Source of the DNA: a virus
Direction: 5' to 3' (one strand)
Virus record (IMG/VR): IMGVR_UViG_3300037189_005864
Location: 1 to 21,179 of that record
DNA length: 21,179 nucleotides
Positions 2,987 to 21,179 of this stretch are shown here, piece after piece. A program made the position numbers and the translations under genes. Each line of letters opens with the position of its first letter. Position 1 is the stretch's first letter. Under the pieces are notes generated by a model. It saw nothing but the letters and a program-made list of their open reading frames with translations. It searched no databases and was not told where the DNA came from.

Positions 2987-4315
2987 ATGGCAAATATACT
3001 CAGTCAAGTAAAAAACTATCTTTTTCCGACTCCCGACAACCCTTTAACGCAAGACCGTCCTAGTGATTGGCGGACTATTAAAAACCCGGAGAGAAACTTA
3101 CGCTCTTACATTACACCCGTACAGCTACAACGTATTCGCCACGACGTGCAACTATGGAGAGAAGCCGTAGGAGAAGCGGAGCAAGCTTGGTATCCTCATA
3201 GGGTAAGAATGCAAAGAATGTATATAGATACAGTCTTAAACGGCCACGTAAGCGCGTGTATGTCAAGACGTAAAAACTTAACTTTGTTAAAAGATTTTAA
3301 GCTTTGTAATGACCTAGGAGAGGAAAACGAAATAGCTACCAAGTTAATTAAAAAATCTTGGTTTAACCTTTACTGCAACTATGTACTAGACGCTCAATTT
3401 TTTGGGTATTCGCTAATTTCTTTAGGCGACCTAGTTAACGACGAGTTTCCTAAGCTAACAACTATAAGACGTTTTAACATAAGCCCCGACCGATTGAACG
3501 TTACCTCTTACGTTTATTCTTTGAGTGGTGCGCAATTTATGGAGGACCCTTATAGACTTTGGAATATATACACTCCAACAAGTACCGAGGTAGGTATATC
3601 TTTGTGCGGGTATGGTTTACTTTATAAAGTGGCTATGTATGAAATTATATGTAGAAATACTTTAGGCTTTAATACTGACGCTGCGGAGTTGTACGGTATG
3701 CCTATAAGAAAAGGTAAGACAAGTAAGACCAACGAAGAGGAAAGAGCTTTATTTGAGAAAGCTTTAGCTCAAATGGGTAGCGCGGGTTATATCCTTATGG
3801 ATACAATGGACGAGCTAGACCTAGTAGAGTCAAGCGGTAGCGGAGCGGGGTTTAAAATATATGAGTCTTTAGAGAAACGTTGCGAGGCTAAAATAAGCAA
3901 AGTATTACTAGGACACGCTGACGCGTTAGATAGTACTGCGGGTAAGTTAGGAGCGGGACAAGGCGAAGACTCTCCCGTAGCTCAAGCGTTACAAGACGTA
4001 CAAACTACCGATATAAGATTTTTAGAGTCTAACATTAATACCGAGCTTTTGCCTAGATTAAGAGAGTTAGGCTTAGCAATACCCGAAGACTTACACTTTG
4101 AGATTAAGAACGACGAGGAAAGAGAGGAGGCAAGACGTAGAGAGGACCAAAGTAATAAAATGACGGCCGACATAGCGCAAGTAATGAAAAACGCGGGCTT
4201 ACAAATGGACTCAGCTTATTTTGAGGAAAGGACGGGAATACCTACGACACCAATAACGGCGCCAACTGATAACCTAACTAAAGTACAAAACAAGCTAAGA
4301 AATTTGTATAAGTGA
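2987..4315 (+). CDS. Portal protein, DUF935/Mu gp29-like
   Basis: A 442-residue protein at the portal position, following the terminase and preceding the Mu F homologue. The sequence fits the DUF935 (Mu gp29) portal family. It has an N-terminal part rich in basic residues (RIRHDVQLWREAVGEAE), a middle beta region, a conserved-looking LGHADALDSTAGKLG stretch around residues 310-325, and a long charged C-terminal helix (DEEREEARRREDQ). A dodecamer of this protein would form the DNA-entry vertex and bind the terminase and then the neck proteins. Its stop TGA overlaps the GTG start of the next gene by 4 nt (GTGA), which suggests translational coupling. Confidence 0.85.
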   Translation: MANILSQVKNYLFPTPDNPLTQDRPSDWRTIKNPERNLRSYITPVQLQRIRHDVQLWREAVGEAEQAWYPHRVRMQRMYIDTVLNGHVSACMSRRKNLTLLKDFKLCNDLGEENEIATKLIKKSWFNLYCNYVLDAQFFGYSLISLGDLVNDEFPKLTTIRRFNISPDRLNVTSYVYSLSGAQFMEDPYRLWNIYTPTSTEVGISLCGYGLLYKVAMYEIICRNTLGFNTDAAELYGMPIRKGKTSKTNEEERALFEKALAQMGSAGYILMDTMDELDLVESSGSGAGFKIYESLEKRCEAKISKVLLGHADALDSTAGKLGAGQGEDSPVAQALQDVQTTDIRFLESNINTELLPRLRELGLAIPEDLHFEIKNDEEREEARRREDQSNKMTADIAQVMKNAGLQMDSAYFEERTGIPTTPITAPTDNLTKVQNKLRNLYK

Positions 4316-9801: not shown

Positions 9802-10899
9802 GTGAATTGGAACTATACTATAGACGTAGACAGCGACGAGCCAATAATGCTAATTAACAAGCATATCGGTTACGACGAGCAAGAGGGGCAAGGTATAGAC
9901 GGCTCTTTGTTTCAAGAGGAATTACTTAAACTAGATAGTCTAGGTAAAAAAAGGATACAAGTTTGGATAAACTCTCCCGGTGGCGTAGTAATGGACGGAT
10001 ATAACATTTTTAACGCTATCTTAAAGAGTAAAACCAAAGTAGATACTTATAACGTAGGAATAGCGGCAAGTATTGCGGCGGTTATTTTCCAAGCGGGACG
10101 TAAAAGAGTAATGGCTGACTATTCTTTACTTATGTATCACAACCCGTACGGGGGCGACTCAGTAGAGTTAAAGAAAATGAGAGAAAGTATCGGGGTAATG
10201 ATAAGCAAGAGAACGGGAGCTAGTTTAGAGGAGGTCCTTAAGATAATGGATAAGACTACTTGGATAAGTGCTAGCGAGGCTCTTTTAAACGGGTTTACTG
10301 ACGAGGTAGAATATAGCAACGAAACCAACGTAAAACACGGAAACGCTAAAGCTATGTGGGATAGTGGAAAAATGATAGCAAATAGTATTTTAAAACCAAA
10401 AAATAAAATAACAATGATTAACGTAGCAAATAAACTCGGCTTAATTGCTGAAGCTAACGAAGACGCGATTTTGTCGGCTATTAACAAAATGGAAGACAGC
10501 GCTAAAAAAATGGAAGACAAATTAGCTAAAATGGAAGACGCTCTTAAAGCTAAGAAAATGGAGTGCGACGAACTAGAGGCTAAAATGGACGAACTTAAGC
10601 AAAAAGCTGAAGACGAAGCTAAGAAAGCGGAAGACGCTAAAAACGAAGCTAAGAAAAGCGAAGCTAAAAACATGGTTGAAAACTTTGTAAAGGTTGGAAA
10701 AATTAAAAACGAAAGCGCTGAAAAGTGGGTAGCTAAAGCTATCGTAGACTTTGACGGAGTTAAAAACCTTTTAGAAGAATTACCTACAAACGCTAAAGCT
10801 ACTTCTATTAACATTAACGAAGTTTCTAACGAAGCTAGTTTAACAATGGTAGCGGCTAAAGCTATGAACGAAATCAAAAATAAATTATCAATCAATTAA
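9802..10899 (+). CDS. ClpP/S14-type prohead protease fused to scaffold
   Basis: A 365-residue two-part protein. Residues 1-175 are a ClpP-like serine protease: INSPGGVVMDGYNIFNAI (oxyanion region), the probable nucleophile S90 in GIAASIAAV, H113 in MYHNP, and acidic D167 in GFTDEVE. Residues 205-365 form a highly charged scaffold. These include perfect heptads with KMED repeated every seven residues (about 229-246), then a Lys/Glu coiled coil and a helical C-terminus. The scaffold would template capsid assembly and be digested by the protease domain. The start is GTG 9802; no in-frame ATG lies upstream before a stop. An internal ATG at codon 205 could make free scaffold. The gap of 53 nt before it is unusually large for this window. 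Confidence 0.85.
   Translation: MNWNYTIDVDSDEPIMLINKHIGYDEQEGQGIDGSLFQEELLKLDSLGKKRIQVWINSPGGVVMDGYNIFNAILKSKTKVDTYNVGIAASIAAVIFQAGRKRVMADYSLLMYHNPYGGDSVELKKMRESIGVMISKRTGASLEEVLKIMDKTTWISASEALLNGFTDEVEYSNETNVKHGNAKAMWDSGKMIANSILKPKNKITMINVANKLGLIAEANEDAILSAINKMEDSAKKMEDKLAKMEDALKAKKMECDELEAKMDELKQKAEDEAKKAEDAKNEAKKSEAKNMVENFVKVGKIKNESAEKWVAKAIVDFDGVKNLLEELPTNAKATSININEVSNEASLTMVAAKAMNEIKNKLSIN
10414..10899 (+). CDS. Candidate nested scaffold protein from internal start
   Basis: An in-frame ATG at codon 205 of the protease gene would give a separate 161-residue scaffold beginning MINVANKLGLI. It follows directly after the protease domain and a linker, and is preceded by an AT-rich leader (aaaataaaataaca) like those before other starts here. 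Nested scaffold genes inside the protease frame are well established (lambda C/Nu3, Mu I/Z). No direct sequence proof exists that this start is used; the alternative is cleavage of the fusion. Confidence 0.45.
   Translation: MINVANKLGLIAEANEDAILSAINKMEDSAKKMEDKLAKMEDALKAKKMECDELEAKMDELKQKAEDEAKKAEDAKNEAKKSEAKNMVENFVKVGKIKNESAEKWVAKAIVDFDGVKNLLEELPTNAKATSININEVSNEASLTMVAAKAMNEIKNKLSIN
10486..10539 (+). repeat. Three 12-bp repeats at 21-bp period in scaffold coding sequence
   Basis: The 12-mer aaaatggaagac occurs at 10486, 10507 and 10528, exactly 21 bp apart, encoding KMED at the same heptad position three times. This is a coiled-coil repeat rather than a mobile or regulatory repeat; the identical DNA suggests recent duplication of a heptad unit. 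Confidence 0.8.
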
Positions 10900-10922: not shown

Positions 10923-11951
10923 ATGAGCGAAGCTTTAAACATTCAAGACACCTCGTGGAGCGGTCCCGCGGCGTCTTATATGATTACACGTGCCGTAGTT
11001 GCTGCTGACACGATTGAAAAAGGTTGTATCTACGTAGAAGACGGTATCAGAAAAAAGAAGACTATCCCTAGAGTAGAAGTATCTAGCTTTATGCAAAAGA
11101 GAACAGCTACTCCAACTTCTCAAGGTAGCGTAGACGTAGACGGTAGAGTTTTGACACCTCAAGACTTAATGTTATACTACGAATTTAACCCAAGAGATTA
11201 CGAGCAACACTTTTACGCTGAACAATTACAACCTAAATTGTTAGGTCGTGAATTGCCCGTAACTGCTGAAAACTTTATGATGATGCAAACAATGAAGCGT
11301 CTAAATGAGTTTTTTGAGAACGCTATTTGGAGAAGTCGTATTGATTACGATTTGGACGGTGCTGCGGTTGACCCAACAACTAAAGGAGATACAGCGGGCG
11401 CTAGCTCTTACTACTACTTTGACGGTTTGATTAAAAAGGCTTTAGACGCTAACACGGGTACTTACCCAACTATCGTTATCTCTAGCCCAAAAACTTTGGT
11501 AGCGGGAACTGCGGGAGTAGGTCAAGAAAATATCGGAGACGCTTTCTTACGTTGTTTAAATTCAGTACCAAAAGCGTTACTTTTCAAGTATGGCGCAGCG
11601 GGTTTGAAGTTTCACGTATCATACGCGACTAAATTGATTTTTGAAGAATGGTTAACTGTTAGTGCTACTTTCAAGAACAACAACTTTACTGAGCAAGGTC
11701 AAAACTTCTACAAAGGTTATACAGTTGCTCCGTTGGCGGGTATGCCCGATAATACTATCGTGGTTTGTATCTCTAAGCCGGACATTGACTCAAACTTGTG
11801 GTTAGGTATTAACTCAACTGAAGATAACCAATTACAGTTGATGAGATTACAAAATAACTCTGAGTTGTTCTTTGTAAAAGGTTTGTTCAAAATGGATACT
11901 CAAATAGGTTTCGCTGACCAATTAGTTATCTATACTACTTTAACTGCTTAA
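10923..11951 (+). CDS. Major capsid protein
   Basis: A 342-residue protein immediately after the protease-scaffold and before the tail genes, matching the size and place of HK97-fold major capsid proteins, here of the divergent Mu-like/Bacteroidota type. Visible regions include an N-terminal segment with basic residues (IRKKKTIPRVEV), a long helix (LLGRELPVTAENFMMMQTMKRLNEFFENAIWRSR, about residues 98-131) like the spine helix, and a C-terminal beta segment (FVKGLFKMDTQIGFADQLVIY). Codon use differs from flanking genes: GAA is favoured over GAG, and ATC, TTC and TTG appear more often, as expected for a very highly expressed gene. A strong terminator follows 7 nt after the stop. It starts at ATG after an A-rich leader. 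Confidence 0.85.
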   Translation: MSEALNIQDTSWSGPAASYMITRAVVAADTIEKGCIYVEDGIRKKKTIPRVEVSSFMQKRTATPTSQGSVDVDGRVLTPQDLMLYYEFNPRDYEQHFYAEQLQPKLLGRELPVTAENFMMMQTMKRLNEFFENAIWRSRIDYDLDGAAVDPTTKGDTAGASSYYYFDGLIKKALDANTGTYPTIVISSPKTLVAGTAGVGQENIGDAFLRCLNSVPKALLFKYGAAGLKFHVSYATKLIFEEWLTVSATFKNNNFTEQGQNFYKGYTVAPLAGMPDNTIVVCISKPDIDSNLWLGINSTEDNQLQLMRLQNNSELFFVKGLFKMDTQIGFADQLVIYTTLTA

Positions 11952-11958
11952 TTAACCC

Positions 11959-11981
11959 GGTAGCCCTACGGGGCTACTTTT
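11959..11981 (+). terminator. Rho-independent terminator after the capsid gene
   Basis: A perfect 7-bp stem (GTAGCCC/GGGCTAC, 11960-11966 with 11971-11977) closes on the tetraloop TACG with a C-G closing pair, that is, a very stable cUNCGg loop. A further G-T pair extends it, and TTTT follows directly. It lies 8 nt after the capsid stop and should limit read-through into the secreted-protein gene. Confidence 0.9.
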
Positions 11982-11994
11982 AAAAAATTATAAA

Positions 11995-12423
11995 ATGAAA
12001 AAATTATCTTTTCTTATTGCTTTTGTAGCGGTTAGCGTTTTCGCTACTGCTCAATCTACTACGCCAAGATATGGCTCGGGAGTAGGTAACGACAATACGG
12101 GTCGTGTTTTGACTTACAAATATCAAACAGCTTCTGACGCTGTAGGAGCTGACACAGTAACTTTATCTCCTAACGCTTGGGAAACTATCGTAAGAATTGC
12201 GGTTGTTGACTCAGTAGTAATCGGTAACCCTAATGTAACTCGTTCTTACGCGGGAGATAACATTAAAATCGTTGCTAGTGGTGCAAGTGGCAAAAAAGTT
12301 AAATTTTCGGGTAGTAATATCCTTTCAGCCGGAACTGCAACTTTATCTAGCGTTGGTCGTGCGGTTATAACTTTAGTGTTTGACGGTGCTAAGTGGGTAG
12401 AGTCTTGTAGAACAGTACAATAG
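11995..12423 (+). CDS. Secreted small protein with Sec signal peptide, next to capsid gene
   Basis: A 142-residue protein whose first 19 residues form a textbook signal peptide: KK at the N-terminus, the hydrophobic core LSFLIAFVAVSVFA, and cleavage at ATA|Q. Gln as the mature first residue is characteristic of signal-peptidase I substrates in Bacteroidota. The mature part (123 residues) is Ser/Thr/Val-rich and beta-like, with no cysteine until the last residues (ESCRTVQ) and no lipobox, so it is soluble periplasmic or surface. Codon use resembles that of the capsid gene (GCT, GTT, ATC), which suggests high expression. Terminators flank it on both sides and no promoter box is visible in the 43-nt gap. 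I do not recognise the family. Possible roles are capsid decoration, receptor masking or superinfection exclusion; these are speculation. Confidence 0.75.
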   Translation: MKKLSFLIAFVAVSVFATAQSTTPRYGSGVGNDNTGRVLTYKYQTASDAVGADTVTLSPNAWETIVRIAVVDSVVIGNPNVTRSYAGDNIKIVASGASGKKVKFSGSNILSAGTATLSSVGRAVITLVFDGAKWVESCRTVQ

Positions 12424-12430
12424 TAAATAT

Positions 12431-12449
12431 AGGGGCTTCGGCCCCTTTT
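12431..12449 (+). terminator. Rho-independent terminator after the secreted-protein gene
   Basis: A 6-bp stem (AGGGGC/GCCCCT) closes on TTCG, the most stable UNCG tetraloop, with TTTT overlapping its 3' end. It starts 8 nt after the stop of the secreted protein. Together with the terminator at 11959-11981 it brackets that gene. Confidence 0.9.
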
Positions 12450-12461
12450 AAAAATCTTTTT

Positions 12462-12641
12462 ATGAAAGTAGAGGATATTAAATTAGCCTTACAAGGACAC
12501 CCTCACGTTAAACAAGTGTGGGTAAAAAATGGCGAGTATTACTTGGTCCCTCAAAAGGGTGCTGAGCTAGTAAAACTAGACGAGCCTACTGTAGTCGTTG
12601 AGGAGGTTAAAGAAACAAAAATTAGTAAAAAATCTAAATAA
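12462..12641 (+). CDS. Hypothetical 59-residue protein before tail sheath
   Basis: An ATG at 12462, 12 nt after the terminator T-run, opens 59 codons ending at TAA 12639-12641, 6 nt before the sheath ATG. The N-terminal 40 residues look folded (EDIKLALQGHPHVKQVWV, then NGEYYLVPQKGAELVKL: a helix followed by two strands). The C-terminus is a charged Glu/Lys tail. I do not recognise the family, but its tight spacing and position in the head-to-tail junction suggest a small head, neck or sheath-associated protein. Confidence 0.7.
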   Translation: MKVEDIKLALQGHPHVKQVWVKNGEYYLVPQKGAELVKLDEPTVVVEEVKETKISKKSK

Positions 12642-12647
12642 CAAACA

Positions 12648-14171
12648 ATGGCGCTTAACGACATTATATTTATAAAAGGCCAAGGGGGGTTAGGAAGACC
12701 TCTTGAGGGCGAAGACTATATCTCGGGGCTATTACTATACTCTAGTACTTTGCCGTCGGGTTTTACGTCTTCAAGCCGTGTAAAATCGGTAGGGAGTTTA
12801 GCTGAGGCTGAGGCGCTAGGAATAGTAGGAGATTATAGCGACGGAACGGCTGCAATCGGGAGCTATTTAGTTTCTAATAAAGGAACGGACGGAGATACTA
12901 TTAATATATCGGTAGTAGGTATTAACGCTGTAGGAGTTGCTACTACTTACGACTTGGGTACTTATACAAAAGTTACTGCGGATAGTACTACTGCTTTAGT
13001 AGCTACTGCTATTGGTGCGGTAATTAACGCGGGAACTTATAACCACGGCTTTAGCGCTTCGGTTGGTAGTTCTACTGTTACTATTACAGCTCCTAAACGT
13101 TTTGGAACATTTTTAAATTCGGGTACTCCTATCGTTGCTACTATCGTGGGAACTATCGCGGGTACTCCTACTCAGTTTTCGGGTGGTACGGTTTCTAAGA
13201 GTGCAGTTTGGCACTATCATATAAGCGAGTTTTTTAGAGTACAATCTAAAGGCCAACTTTTTATCGGTATTTATGCCGTGCCTAGTTCTTACACTTTTAG
13301 CGAAATACAATCTATTCAAGATTACGCGCAAGGTAAGATAAGACAAATAGGTATCTTTAAAGACGCTGCTTTTTCTAGTTCGGACCTTACAGCTATTCAA
13401 GTAGTTTGTAACACTTTAGCGGGTTTACACAAACCTTTAAGCGCTATTTACGCGGGTAACATTCAAGGAACTACCGACTTAACTACTCTTACTAACTTAG
13501 CTACATTAACTGCTAATAACGTTTCGGCTGTTATCGGTCAAGACGCTGCGGGTCAAGGAAATTACTTGTATGTAACTCAAGGAAAATCTATTACTTGTCT
13601 AGGTGCTACTTTGGGAGCGGTTGCTCTTGCAAAAGTAAGCGACGACATAGCTTGGATTTCTAAATTTAATATGAGTAGCGGAACGGAGCTAGATACTATT
13701 GCTTTTGCAAATGGAACTCTAGTAAGTTCTTTAAGTCAATCTACTTTAAACACTTTAGACAATAATAGATACATTTTCTTAATTAAGTACGTAGGTATTG
13801 CGGGTAGTTACTTTAACGACTCACATTGTGCGGTAGCTGTTACTTCGGACTACGCTTATATTGAGAACAATAGAACTATTGACAAAGCTATTAGAGGTAT
13901 TTACTCTAGTTTGTTACCTAACTTAAACAGTCCTTTACAACTTAACGCTGACGGTACTTTACAAAATACTACGGTAGCTTATTTTACTAGCCAAGCGAGT
14001 GTAAACTTAGACGAAATGATTAGACAAACTGAGTTGAGCGCTTACCAAGTATTAATAGACCCTACTCAAAACGTATTAAGTACAAGTAATTTAACTGTAT
14101 CGGTTAAATTAGTACCTATCGGAGTAGCTAGACAAATAACAGTAAAAATTGGTTTCACACTTTCAATTTAA
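12648..14171 (+). CDS. Tail sheath protein
   Basis: A 507-residue contractile sheath subunit. It has an N-terminal segment (ALNDIIFIKGQGGLGRP), an early domain with a SLAEAEALG helix, and the typical sheath C-terminus after residue 430: LDEMIRQTELSAYQVLIDPTQNVLSTSNLTVSVKLVPIGVARQITVKIGFTLSI, which supplies the strands that link neighbouring subunits. Residues 83-181 form a Thr/Ala/Gly-rich beta domain inserted in the N-terminal part, likely exposed on the tail surface. Contraction of this polymer drives the tube through the host envelope, so this gene defines the phage as myovirus type. The tail-tube gene follows 6 nt later. Confidence 0.85.
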   Translation: MALNDIIFIKGQGGLGRPLEGEDYISGLLLYSSTLPSGFTSSSRVKSVGSLAEAEALGIVGDYSDGTAAIGSYLVSNKGTDGDTINISVVGINAVGVATTYDLGTYTKVTADSTTALVATAIGAVINAGTYNHGFSASVGSSTVTITAPKRFGTFLNSGTPIVATIVGTIAGTPTQFSGGTVSKSAVWHYHISEFFRVQSKGQLFIGIYAVPSSYTFSEIQSIQDYAQGKIRQIGIFKDAAFSSSDLTAIQVVCNTLAGLHKPLSAIYAGNIQGTTDLTTLTNLATLTANNVSAVIGQDAAGQGNYLYVTQGKSITCLGATLGAVALAKVSDDIAWISKFNMSSGTELDTIAFANGTLVSSLSQSTLNTLDNNRYIFLIKYVGIAGSYFNDSHCAVAVTSDYAYIENNRTIDKAIRGIYSSLLPNLNSPLQLNADGTLQNTTVAYFTSQASVNLDEMIRQTELSAYQVLIDPTQNVLSTSNLTVSVKLVPIGVARQITVKIGFTLSI

Positions 14172-19322: not shown

Positions 19323-19873
19323 GAACTTACAAAGCAATAAGCGGGCAAACCTTAGCCGATATATGCATGAATACTTACGGCTCTATGGACTATTTTTATA
19401 CATTACTACAAGACTCGGGAGTAGCTAACGCGGACCAAATGCCGTACACGGGTCAAGAGTTTACTTATAACGAAACTTTAATAGTAGATAGCTCGGTAAA
19501 TAAAACGACTACTTTAAATAACATTCGTTACGCTACAGCTTTTAGTAACAACGGAAATACTTATTATGTAACCCAAGGCGGACCAAGTAATATAATAAAT
19601 AATAACCCCCCGTTTGTGCCGCCTCCAACAAATATATCTATGTATCAAAAAACTTCGGCTAGTGAATATACTAGCGCCTCAAATAGCGGAGAAACTATTA
19701 TAACTTTGCCTAGCTTGGCGGGTAAAGATTTTATACAAGTAGAAAAAAATATCCAAGTATTAGAAACTTCTCAGTACCAATGGAATAAAAATACCTTTAC
19801 TTTAACTTTAGCCGAGCCTATTTATAAGGACGAAAAATTATTTATTTTAGTAACCGAAATGATAACAGTATAA
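19319..19873 (+). CDS. LysM-like baseplate protein with C-terminal beta domain
   Basis: A 184-residue protein. Residues 1-56 resemble a LysM or tail-X type module: YKAISGQTLADICMNTYG, a helix, GQEFTYNETLIV. Such modules occur on baseplate hub proteins (P2 gpX, T4 gp53 type) that bind peptidoglycan or the hub. The middle (residues 60-110) is Asn/Pro-rich and flexible (NNNPPFVPPPTN); the end is a separate beta domain (FIQVEKNIQVLETSQYQWNKNTFTLTLAEPI, KLFILVTEM) as found on tail appendages. It probably sits between the wedge and the large fibre encoded next, whose ATG overlaps its stop by one base. Confidence 0.65.
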   Translation: MRTYKAISGQTLADICMNTYGSMDYFYTLLQDSGVANADQMPYTGQEFTYNETLIVDSSVNKTTTLNNIRYATAFSNNGNTYYVTQGGPSNIINNNPPFVPPPTNISMYQKTSASEYTSASNSGETIITLPSLAGKDFIQVEKNIQVLETSQYQWNKNTFTLTLAEPIYKDEKLFILVTEMITV

Positions 19874-21179
19874 TGAAAAAGATTTTTTTAAGTTTATTTA
19901 TTTTAATAAGTTTTACGGCTTCGGCTCAATGGACTATAATAAACGGTAACCAACGTTTTGTAAAGGGTTTAGGAATACCCGTAAGAGATACGATTATAAC
20001 GGGCGTTTTGGCTAGTGATAGCGCTCAAATAGTGTTAAGACCTCAAGACTCTACAGTTTATGTAAGATACAAAGGGCGTTTTCGTAAGGTAGGAGTAGGA
20101 GGCGCCGGGACCCAAAATTTACAAAGTGTTTTAAATAATGGTAATAGTGCTGATACTGATATAATTTTAAGCCACTCGGGTTTTCAAGCTGTTTTAAGCG
20201 GTACTAGCGGAGTTTTGCAATTAATTAGCAATGATAATTCTACTGTTTATATTAATTCGACGGGTACTGAATACGTAAGCGCTGACGCGAACTCTTATTT
20301 ATATTTATATCCTAATTTTGACGGTAGCGCTCATAATTTATGGTATCCTAATCAATATAAAAGCGACGATACTCTAGCAACTTTAGAGGACGTAAGAGCG
20401 GGAGCTTCAACTATTGACACTACTTCGCTCTCAAACCGTATCAATTTACGCGTGAAATATACGGACACCGCAAGTATGTTAAGCCCTTATTTGAGGAAAA
20501 CTGATACTACGGGAGCTTTTTTGTCTTTAGTTTCTCAACCTAACGACTCTACTTTAACTTTTAAAAAAGGGGGTATTTCTAGCGATTATGTAATAAGGAG
20601 CGCCTCTAGTGCTTCTAGTGCTACTAAACTAAGTACAACGGCTTATAATCAAACGGGGGCTACAATTACAAAAGGTAGCGTAGTTTATATTAACGGCTCA
20701 CACGGAAACCAACCTACTATAACTTTAGCTAAAGCTAACGCTGAAGCTACAAGCGCTTACACTTATGGTATAGCCGCCGCCGATATACCTAACAATTCTA
20801 GCGGTAGTGTTGTACAAGCGGGACTTGTTGAAAATTTAAATACTAACTCTTTTAATGACGGCGACGCTGTTTATTTAAGTCCTACAACTGCGGGAGGATA
20901 TACAACTACTAAGCCTTTATCTCCCTCACATTATGTATTTTTAGGAATAATAGTTAGAAAACACTTTACCCAAGGGACCCTACAACTTTACATACACAAC
21001 GGGTTTCAGCTTGACGAAATGAGCGACGTATCAATAGCCTTAGTGCCTAACGACTCAACTATTTTGCAATTTAGTAGAGTAGATAGTCTTTGGCACGACG
21101 TAGACCCTACAACTGCTATGGGGAATAGATTTATAAAAAGAACTGATACGGCCTCTATGCTTAGTCCTTACGCTCGTAC
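19873..21179 (+). CDS. Large tail-fibre protein with Sec signal peptide (3' end outside window)
   Basis: The frame is open for 435 codons to the window edge. The first 18 residues form a signal peptide (KK, then IFLSLFILISFTASA) with a predicted ASA|Q site, again giving Gln as first mature residue. Residues 19-80 form a strand-rich head domain (WTIINGNQRFVKGLGIP). A low-complexity Ser/Asn/Thr shaft follows. From about residue 255 there is a domain known from many phage fibres (GATITKGSVVYINGSHG, TYGIAAADIPNNSSGSVVQAGLV, DGDAVYLSPT, YVFLGIIVRKH). The decapeptide TDTASMLSPY occurs twice, at about residues 197 and 424, a repeat typical of Bacteroidota fibre shafts. It follows the LysM-like gene with a one-base overlap, so it is in the same operon. 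Confidence 0.75.
   Translation, partial: MKKIFLSLFILISFTASAQWTIINGNQRFVKGLGIPVRDTIITGVLASDSAQIVLRPQDSTVYVRYKGRFRKVGVGGAGTQNLQSVLNNGNSADTDIILSHSGFQAVLSGTSGVLQLISNDNSTVYINSTGTEYVSADANSYLYLYPNFDGSAHNLWYPNQYKSDDTLATLEDVRAGASTIDTTSLSNRINLRVKYTDTASMLSPYLRKTDTTGAFLSLVSQPNDSTLTFKKGGISSDYVIRSASSASSATKLSTTAYNQTGATITKGSVVYINGSHGNQPTITLAKANAEATSAYTYGIAAADIPNNSSGSVVQAGLVENLNTNSFNDGDAVYLSPTTAGGYTTTKPLSPSHYVFLGIIVRKHFTQGTLQLYIHNGFQLDEMSDVSIALVPNDSTILQFSRVDSLWHDVDPTTAMGNRFIKRTDTASMLSPYAR
20461..20490 (+). repeat. Tail-fibre decapeptide repeat, copy 1
   Basis: Codes for TDTASMLSPY in the fibre gene. The second copy at 21142-21171 encodes the same ten residues with eight of ten codons different. The pair marks a repeated shaft or hinge unit. 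Confidence 0.7.
21142..21171 (+). repeat. Tail-fibre decapeptide repeat, copy 2
   Basis: The second TDTASMLSPY unit of the fibre gene, 8 nt before the window end; more copies may follow downstream. Only the ATG and CCT codons are shared with copy 1. Confidence 0.7.

Follow-up and report, generated by a model that had tools for sequence, protein, structure and literature searches.

The assembly of tailed phages is taught as a purely cytoplasmic process. Lambda gpD represents the general kind of protein that decorates the phage head, while T5 Llp, encoded beside a receptor-binding gene, is a superinfection-exclusion lipoprotein. The protein studied here, SPX, resembles Llp in being a small phage protein predicted to be exported, and possibly a receptor mask, but it has no lipobox, and its neighbours are capsid and sheath genes.

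Among the Bacteroidetes, the residue following the cleavage site (+1) is glutamine in 71% of the predicted substrates of signal peptidase I (SPI), averaged across species (the 'Q-rule'; PMC5837995), and the exposed glutamine is converted to pyroglutamate, stabilising the exported proteins (PMC10653852). Signal peptides have been predicted in rumen Bacteroides phages (PMC5723332), and proteins of unknown function with Q-rule signal peptides have been described in P. gingivalis phages (Nixviridae; PMC10367356). By description SPX can be set beside the latter, as a phage protein with a Q-rule signal peptide, but those phages are siphoviruses, and the part of that study considered here describes no capsid-adjacent cassette with signal-free twins (PMC10367356). 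A further likeness is to gp08 of Cellulophaga phage phiSM and to gp085 and gp086 of phi18:3, late proteins labelled as structural by MS/MS that also carry Q-rule signal peptides; phiSM gp08 and phi18:3 gp085 are larger (407 and 548 aa), no homology to SPX was seen in any of the three, and the phiSM gene lies away from the capsid gene. The literature searched contained no description of a capsid-adjacent family with two interchangeable types.

Genomic context and codon usage

The virus record that forms the window, meaning the whole stretch of DNA that was analysed, has 21,179 bases. Its genes are those of a phage with a contractile tail, and include Mu-type portal and F genes and one for a ClpP-type protease (Table 1); the same genome encodes a fibre-type protein with a T4-gp10-like C-terminus. 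Relatives are found in metagenome-assembled genomes of Bacteroidota (Chitinophagaceae bacterium CW02 and uncultured Bacteroidetes).

An earlier note on this DNA had described a small, strongly codon-adapted gene in the capsid-tail junction, encoding a clear Sec signal peptide (ATA↓Q, the arrow marking predicted cleavage), and all of this is borne out. The reading frame is present between capsid-type and sheath genes, and begins at the ATG at 11995, no alternative start being available before the mature part. Apart from the capsid gene itself, no gene has codon usage as capsid-like; the log-ratio per codon is 0.077, with a null mean of -0.275, and none of 5000 resamplings reached so high a value. 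The signal peptide has a classical Sec/SPI Q-rule site, with the conserved residues described below.

The RNA hairpins on either side of SPX were rejected as its key feature, because hairpins similar to the upstream one accompany both the signal-bearing and the signal-free types of SPX in relatives, and the downstream one is retained in a minority of relatives only. The count of consensus terminators was close to the shuffled mean. The small frame between SPX and the sheath gene has a counterpart of approximately 60-100 aa in many relatives. On the minus strand, a 252-codon open frame runs antisense to the protease gene (window 10137-10895), and is probably a by-product of the repetitive coiled-coil region of that gene.

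Table 1. Positions of the features discussed, in the window unless another locus is named.
Feature	Position	Strand	Basis or remark
ClpP-type protease	9802-10899		5' of the capsid-type gene
Putative major capsid protein	10923..11951	+	PHROG 11320 / 20525; homologous to Bacteroides phage capsid proteins
RNA hairpin, gap between capsid gene and SPX	11959..11978	+	dG -15.0 vs shuffled -3.5
SPX (gene in question, 142 aa)	11995..12423	+	ORF; homologues between capsid gene and sheath gene
Predicted Sec/SPI signal peptide, SPX residues 1-19, cleavage ATA↓Q20	11995..12051	+	Q-rule (PMC5837995)
Conserved N-terminal arm of mature SPX (QSTTPRYGSGVGNDNTGRVL)	12052..12111	+	Alignment; signal-free homologues begin here (hhalign)
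Predicted beta-sandwich domain of tailspike / capsid-spike type, SPX residues 39-142	12109..12420	+	AlphaFold2 model, VIA Z 7.9-8.9
RNA hairpin 3' of SPX	12431..12446	+	dG -11.7 vs shuffled -4.7
59-aa ORF, gap between SPX and sheath gene	12462..12641	+	Nucleotide similarity to relatives is back from here after the cassette swap
Contractile tail sheath (DUF2586)	12648..14171	+	PF10758, E=3.7e-47
Probable tail-fibre-type gene with Q-rule signal peptide MKKIFLSLFILISFTASA↓QWTII...	19873..21179	+	Cut by the window end
phi18:3 gp085 and gp086	L300 802-2445 and 2455-3933

Conservation of the signal peptide

The SPX precursor begins MKKLSFLIAFVAVSVFATA↓QSTTPRYG, in which a positively charged n-region is followed by an uncharged h-region and the ATA↓Q site. 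With a hydropathy of 2.94 over nine residues, this is the most hydrophobic N-terminus among the complete genes scanned. Homologous loci were gathered from a first IMG/VR scan (31 loci) and a profile scan (80 loci), and signal peptides were scored by a simple rule. The IMG/VR homologues that reach the N-terminus all start with MKK, MKN or similar, followed by a hydrophobic stretch and then A, G or S before Q.

After dereplication, 68 signal-bearing homologues remained, all of which have glutamine at +1 and A, G or S at -1 (60, 5 and 3 cases respectively). The signal is 18-20 residues long in 67 of the 68, aspartate and glutamate are absent from it in 67, and the gene order of capsid gene, SPX and tail sheath gene is constant throughout. 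A test for lipoprotein (SPII) processing found no lipobox cysteine, the +1 residue being Q in every case. Between close pairs, dN/dS is 0.28 in the signal region and 0.075 in the mature part; the leader is faster-evolving than the rest of the protein, yet under purifying selection, as expected of a working signal peptide. It is present in 62 of the 64 SPX members of the main clade, and every intact member of the main clade to which the window belongs has one. A wrongly assigned start codon or a chance hydrophobic stretch was rejected as an explanation, given the conserved Q-rule site and the purifying selection on the leader. The predicted export of SPX is well supported by this conserved Q-rule signal.

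A signal-free type in the same slot

SPX without the leader also occurs, in this same position and in a number of relatives almost as large, and its start coincides exactly with the mature N-terminus (MANTSRFPGGFNNDNTSR... compared with QSTTPRYGSGVGNDNTGR... in the signal-bearing type). A profile search showed that at two prophage loci in one Chitinophagaceae genome the gene directly 3' of the capsid gene is a leaderless SPX; when Chitinophagaceae genomes were searched for prophage copies, only two genomes matched, one of them with two signal-free copies. Alignment of the two families by hhalign gave a probability of 99.8% (E=5e-29, 38% identity), residue 21 of the signal-bearing family pairing with residue 2-3 of the signal-free family. 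This implies that the leader has been appended exactly at the start of a common protein.

The frequency of the two types was surveyed using the capsid protein as bait and inspecting the gene 3' of it whatever its leader. Following the removal of near-identical capsids, 125 loci were retained: 61 encode one SPX with a signal and 48 one SPX without, six have two copies and ten have none. These frequencies are not population estimates, as the bait used to collect the loci was SPX in some cases and the capsid protein in others. Of the two-copy loci, two have a signal on both copies, one on neither and three have one copy of each type. SPX adjoins the capsid gene in those SPX-bearing loci that reach that gene, and is absent in some relatives; in lotta8-1 and FPSV-S1, which are Winoviridae relatives, the slot is empty, implying that SPX is dispensable.

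Several loci have unusual arrangements. Tandem copies 3' of the capsid gene are both signal-bearing in L058 and L162, and both signal-free in L176. In L071, L075 and L082, a signal-bearing SPX is followed by a divergent signal-free SPX-like gene (127-128 aa) and then by the sheath gene, and L134 has two nearby signal-bearing SPX-like genes, encoding 140 and 280 aa, from position 4198 onwards.

Exchange of the two types as cassettes

On the capsid tree, the state of the leader has switched at least 11 times, or 13 times by a second method, in which at least seven switches are forced by well-supported branches. By contrast, trees of the mature SPX domain require only three or four changes of leader, also when the N-terminal columns are removed. 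The many switches on the one tree and the few on the other indicate that the two types are nearly separate lineages, exchanged beside capsid genes.

The edges of the exchanged segment can be located by comparing closely related loci. The window and L186/L202 (L186 being signal-free), whose capsid proteins are 88% identical to that of the window, are similar in nucleotide sequence up to 11953, two bases beyond the end of the capsid gene. Similarity returns at 12599, and the SPX sequences in the interval cannot be aligned. Likewise, L122 (signal-free) and L123 (signal-bearing) are similar as far as position 3922 of L122, in which the capsid stop codon ends at 3921, and again just after SPX. The SPX types have been swapped by recombination as clean gene cassettes between the capsid and sheath genes. 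As similarity is broken exactly at the gene and the leader state has switched repeatedly, the two types substitute for one another next to the same capsid.

Predicted fold and domain relatives

The AlphaFold2 model of SPX (mean pLDDT 84) shows a helix for the leader, an arm of irregular structure and a beta-sandwich. Its best match is the tailspike TSP4 of CBA120 (Z 8.9, rmsd 2.7 over 92 residues), alongside the Solidus depolymerase gp83 (Z 8.5), the KP1 baseplate (Z 7.9) and the capsid spike of Pseudomonas phage Pa223 in its C-terminal domain (PDB 9ny6; rmsd 2.9 over 91 residues), the last at a modest Z of 7.9 that ties with the tailspike domains. A model of the signal-free family (pLDDT 87) retrieves the same set of structural matches, with a best Z of 8.5 and a Z of 7.3 to the Pa223 capsid spike. 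All these Z values are modest; the top matches nevertheless lie above most unrelated ones and recur for both families. The same hit lists include StcE and a chaperone-substrate complex, such that spike-like folds occur on non-virion proteins too. Judged from these models, the predicted fold is the same in both SPX types, a beta-sandwich of the kind seen in phage tailspikes and in one capsid spike. Among named viral proteins with predicted structures, many of those closest to SPX are tail-fibre proteins.

Searches of Pfam and PHROGs with SPX gave just weak or sub-threshold matches of tail-fibre or depolymerase type, and no enzymatic family. Phage_depo_C (PF25692) matched 2 of 20 and 2 of 27 members of the two types, with best E values of 0.0015 and 0.0017, below the curated cut-off (19.2 bits for L164, against a cut-off of 25). 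Long C-terminal extensions are found both on signal-bearing proteins (L098 2245-3069, L104 1294-2424 and L123 3951-4910; 309, 376 and 319 aa) and on signal-free ones (L127, L186 and L206; 234, 277 and 253 aa), and parts of the L104 and L123 proteins bear a weak resemblance to virion structural and tail fibre families. A PDB sequence search with the profile of either type found nothing convincing, PADLOC-DB, a set of anti-phage defence models, contained no match to SPX, tblastn found no SPX in cultured phages, and one signal-free member compared with phages gave only a weak Arthrobacter match.

SPX can be compared with the Pa223 capsid spike, in that its small predicted beta-sandwich is a modest match to the C-terminal domain of the spike and its gene is capsid-adjacent, with capsid-like codon usage. 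It differs in having a Sec signal peptide and lacking the rest of the spike, and a place on the capsid is for SPX a proposal only. The tailspike, baseplate and depolymerase domains provide the best fold matches of both types (Z 8.9 and 8.5) and the weak Pfam matches (E about 0.0015), but SPX is a free-standing domain that bears a signal peptide, lacks a catalytic domain and is encoded among the head genes.

Other signal-bearing proteins of virion type

SPX is not the only signal-bearing gene in these phages. At the position of the probable tail-fibre-type gene (Table 1), a Q-rule signal is present in 12 of 20 relatives, on proteins of up to 1488 aa, independently of the type of SPX. In cultured Cellulophaga phages, phiSM gp08 (L294 5907-7130) starts MKNYLSILFLLSSFLVLS↓QNPT, and phi18:3 gp085 and gp086 start MKNKITIIMILMSISFGYS↓QVLV and MKKTIYILSILLLTISGVSA↓QTVI. 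GenBank labels phiSM gp08 as structural from experimental MS/MS and both phi18:3 proteins as MS/MS structural, labels that are notes in the database and for which detection in a virion preparation is compatible with co-purified envelope material. They suggest that a signal peptide is compatible with a virion role in this host phylum. The earlier note had argued that cytoplasmic assembly makes export from this locus unexpected; the prediction of export is upheld, whereas the step from exported to non-virion is weakened by these Cellulophaga proteins.

A different kind of leader was observed at four loci (L108 4619-5701, L109 4637-5734, L111 2119-3126 and L117 3675-4769), the capsid or capsid-position genes of Winoviridae and one metagenomic relative, which have hydrophobic, signal-like N-termini without a Q-rule site. 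In Bacteroides phage p00, the capsid protein has a C-terminal BACON domain (L110 4998-6221) and a lysin gene takes the place of SPX. By analogy, such a fusion in a phage lacking SPX would be fitting if the slot serves for display domains.

Possible functions of SPX

The combination of a spike-type fold, a capsid locus, capsid-like codon usage and an interchangeable signal-free form is most simply accounted for by a protein of the virion exterior, in which case the leader would mean that one lineage stores SPX outside the cytoplasm, to meet particles at lysis. Our main reading, to which we assign a probability of roughly 0.4, is that SPX is an adhesin of capsid-spike or decoration type that is routed via the periplasm and joins particles or debris at lysis. 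It would be made in step with the capsid, as a short N-terminal arm and a single beta-sandwich of tailspike or capsid-spike type. In the lineage of the window, the Sec signal peptide would direct the precursor to the periplasm, signal peptidase I would cleave it between A and Q, and the new N-terminus would probably be capped by the glutaminyl cyclase of the host. Mature SPX would most likely wait outside the cytoplasm and meet finished particles once lysis has brought the compartments together, and so equip the particle, or surfaces around it, with a glycan- or envelope-binding domain, while the signal-free type would do the same job from the cytoplasm. We infer the actual export, the particle binding, the time of joining and the ligand binding from the features described above. 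Counted against this reading are that the SPX group has been seen only as sequences and never on a particle, and that the Cellulophaga MS/MS proteins have no seen homology to it; we know of no precedent in tailed phages for a joining step at lysis. More generally, Bacteroidota phages might route virion-surface adhesins, both capsid spikes and tail fibres, via the Sec, SPI and glutaminyl cyclase pathway of the host and fit them only at lysis, such that assembly is completed outside the cytoplasm, a possible but doubtful extension.

The principal alternative retains export but not the virion. Mature SPX could stay in the periplasm or envelope, or be shed at lysis, and mask receptors or bind debris, progeny then not re-adsorbing, in the manner of T5 Llp; we consider this rather unlikely. 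The genuine and strictly conserved Q-rule signal peptide and the capsid-level codon usage both fit such a role, and the modelled spike-like domain could bind the surface ligand used by the phage. Hence the leader is accounted for directly, but its signal-free twins are not: they are interchangeable with SPX beside near-identical capsids, and a periplasmic mask should not so often yield to a cytoplasmic form. SPX also lacks the lipobox of Llp and adjoins a capsid gene rather than a receptor-binding gene. The earlier note had favoured a periplasmic or surface factor (mask, superinfection exclusion or decoy), and had held that homologues lacking the signal peptide would refute it. The prediction of export survives, on the Q-rule signal; the inference that SPX must be an envelope factor is not supported, as in 48 of the 125 loci the slot is filled by one signal-free homologue and no other, with the same predicted fold.

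Other explanations assign the leader a different part or none. It is distinctly unlikely that it is an assembly device, either anchoring SPX, or else the procapsid, at the inner membrane or being cut by the ClpP-type prohead protease. Capsid proteins of lotta8-1, FPSV-S1, Peternella_1 and L117 do have hydrophobic N-terminal leaders, and cleavage of such leaders by prohead proteases has been proposed for P. gingivalis phages (PMC10367356), but those capsid leaders lack the Q, whereas that of SPX is a textbook SPI site with Q at +1 in 68 of 68 cases, and signal-free SPX is found beside related capsids without any leader. The free exchange of the two types, either of which would be released at lysis, would also suit a signal peptide that is a neutral passenger from fusion with a host secreted protein, SPX working after lysis whatever compartment stored it. 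This is improbable given that 62 of 64 main-clade members keep the leader, that it is under purifying selection and that the +1 Q is never lost. An amidase or lysin lies directly 3' of the capsid gene in p00 and Peternella_1, as would befit a lysis or envelope-processing factor in the capsid-sheath junction; the lack of an enzymatic family match and the spike-type fold leave this very little chance of being the role of SPX.

Implications for phage biology

A conserved capsid-locus family with a strict export signal, and with signal-free twins beside the same capsid, makes the passage of virion parts through the periplasm directly testable. If virion parts do take this route, then the Q-rule pathway of the host contributes to virion maturation, and predicted signal peptides would stop counting against a structural role in phage annotation. 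If SPX is instead a decoy, it would be a phage factor that acts on the envelope, is widespread and probably strongly expressed, and has been built from a virion domain. Whichever answer holds, it also concerns the fibre genes of these phages that carry signal peptides.
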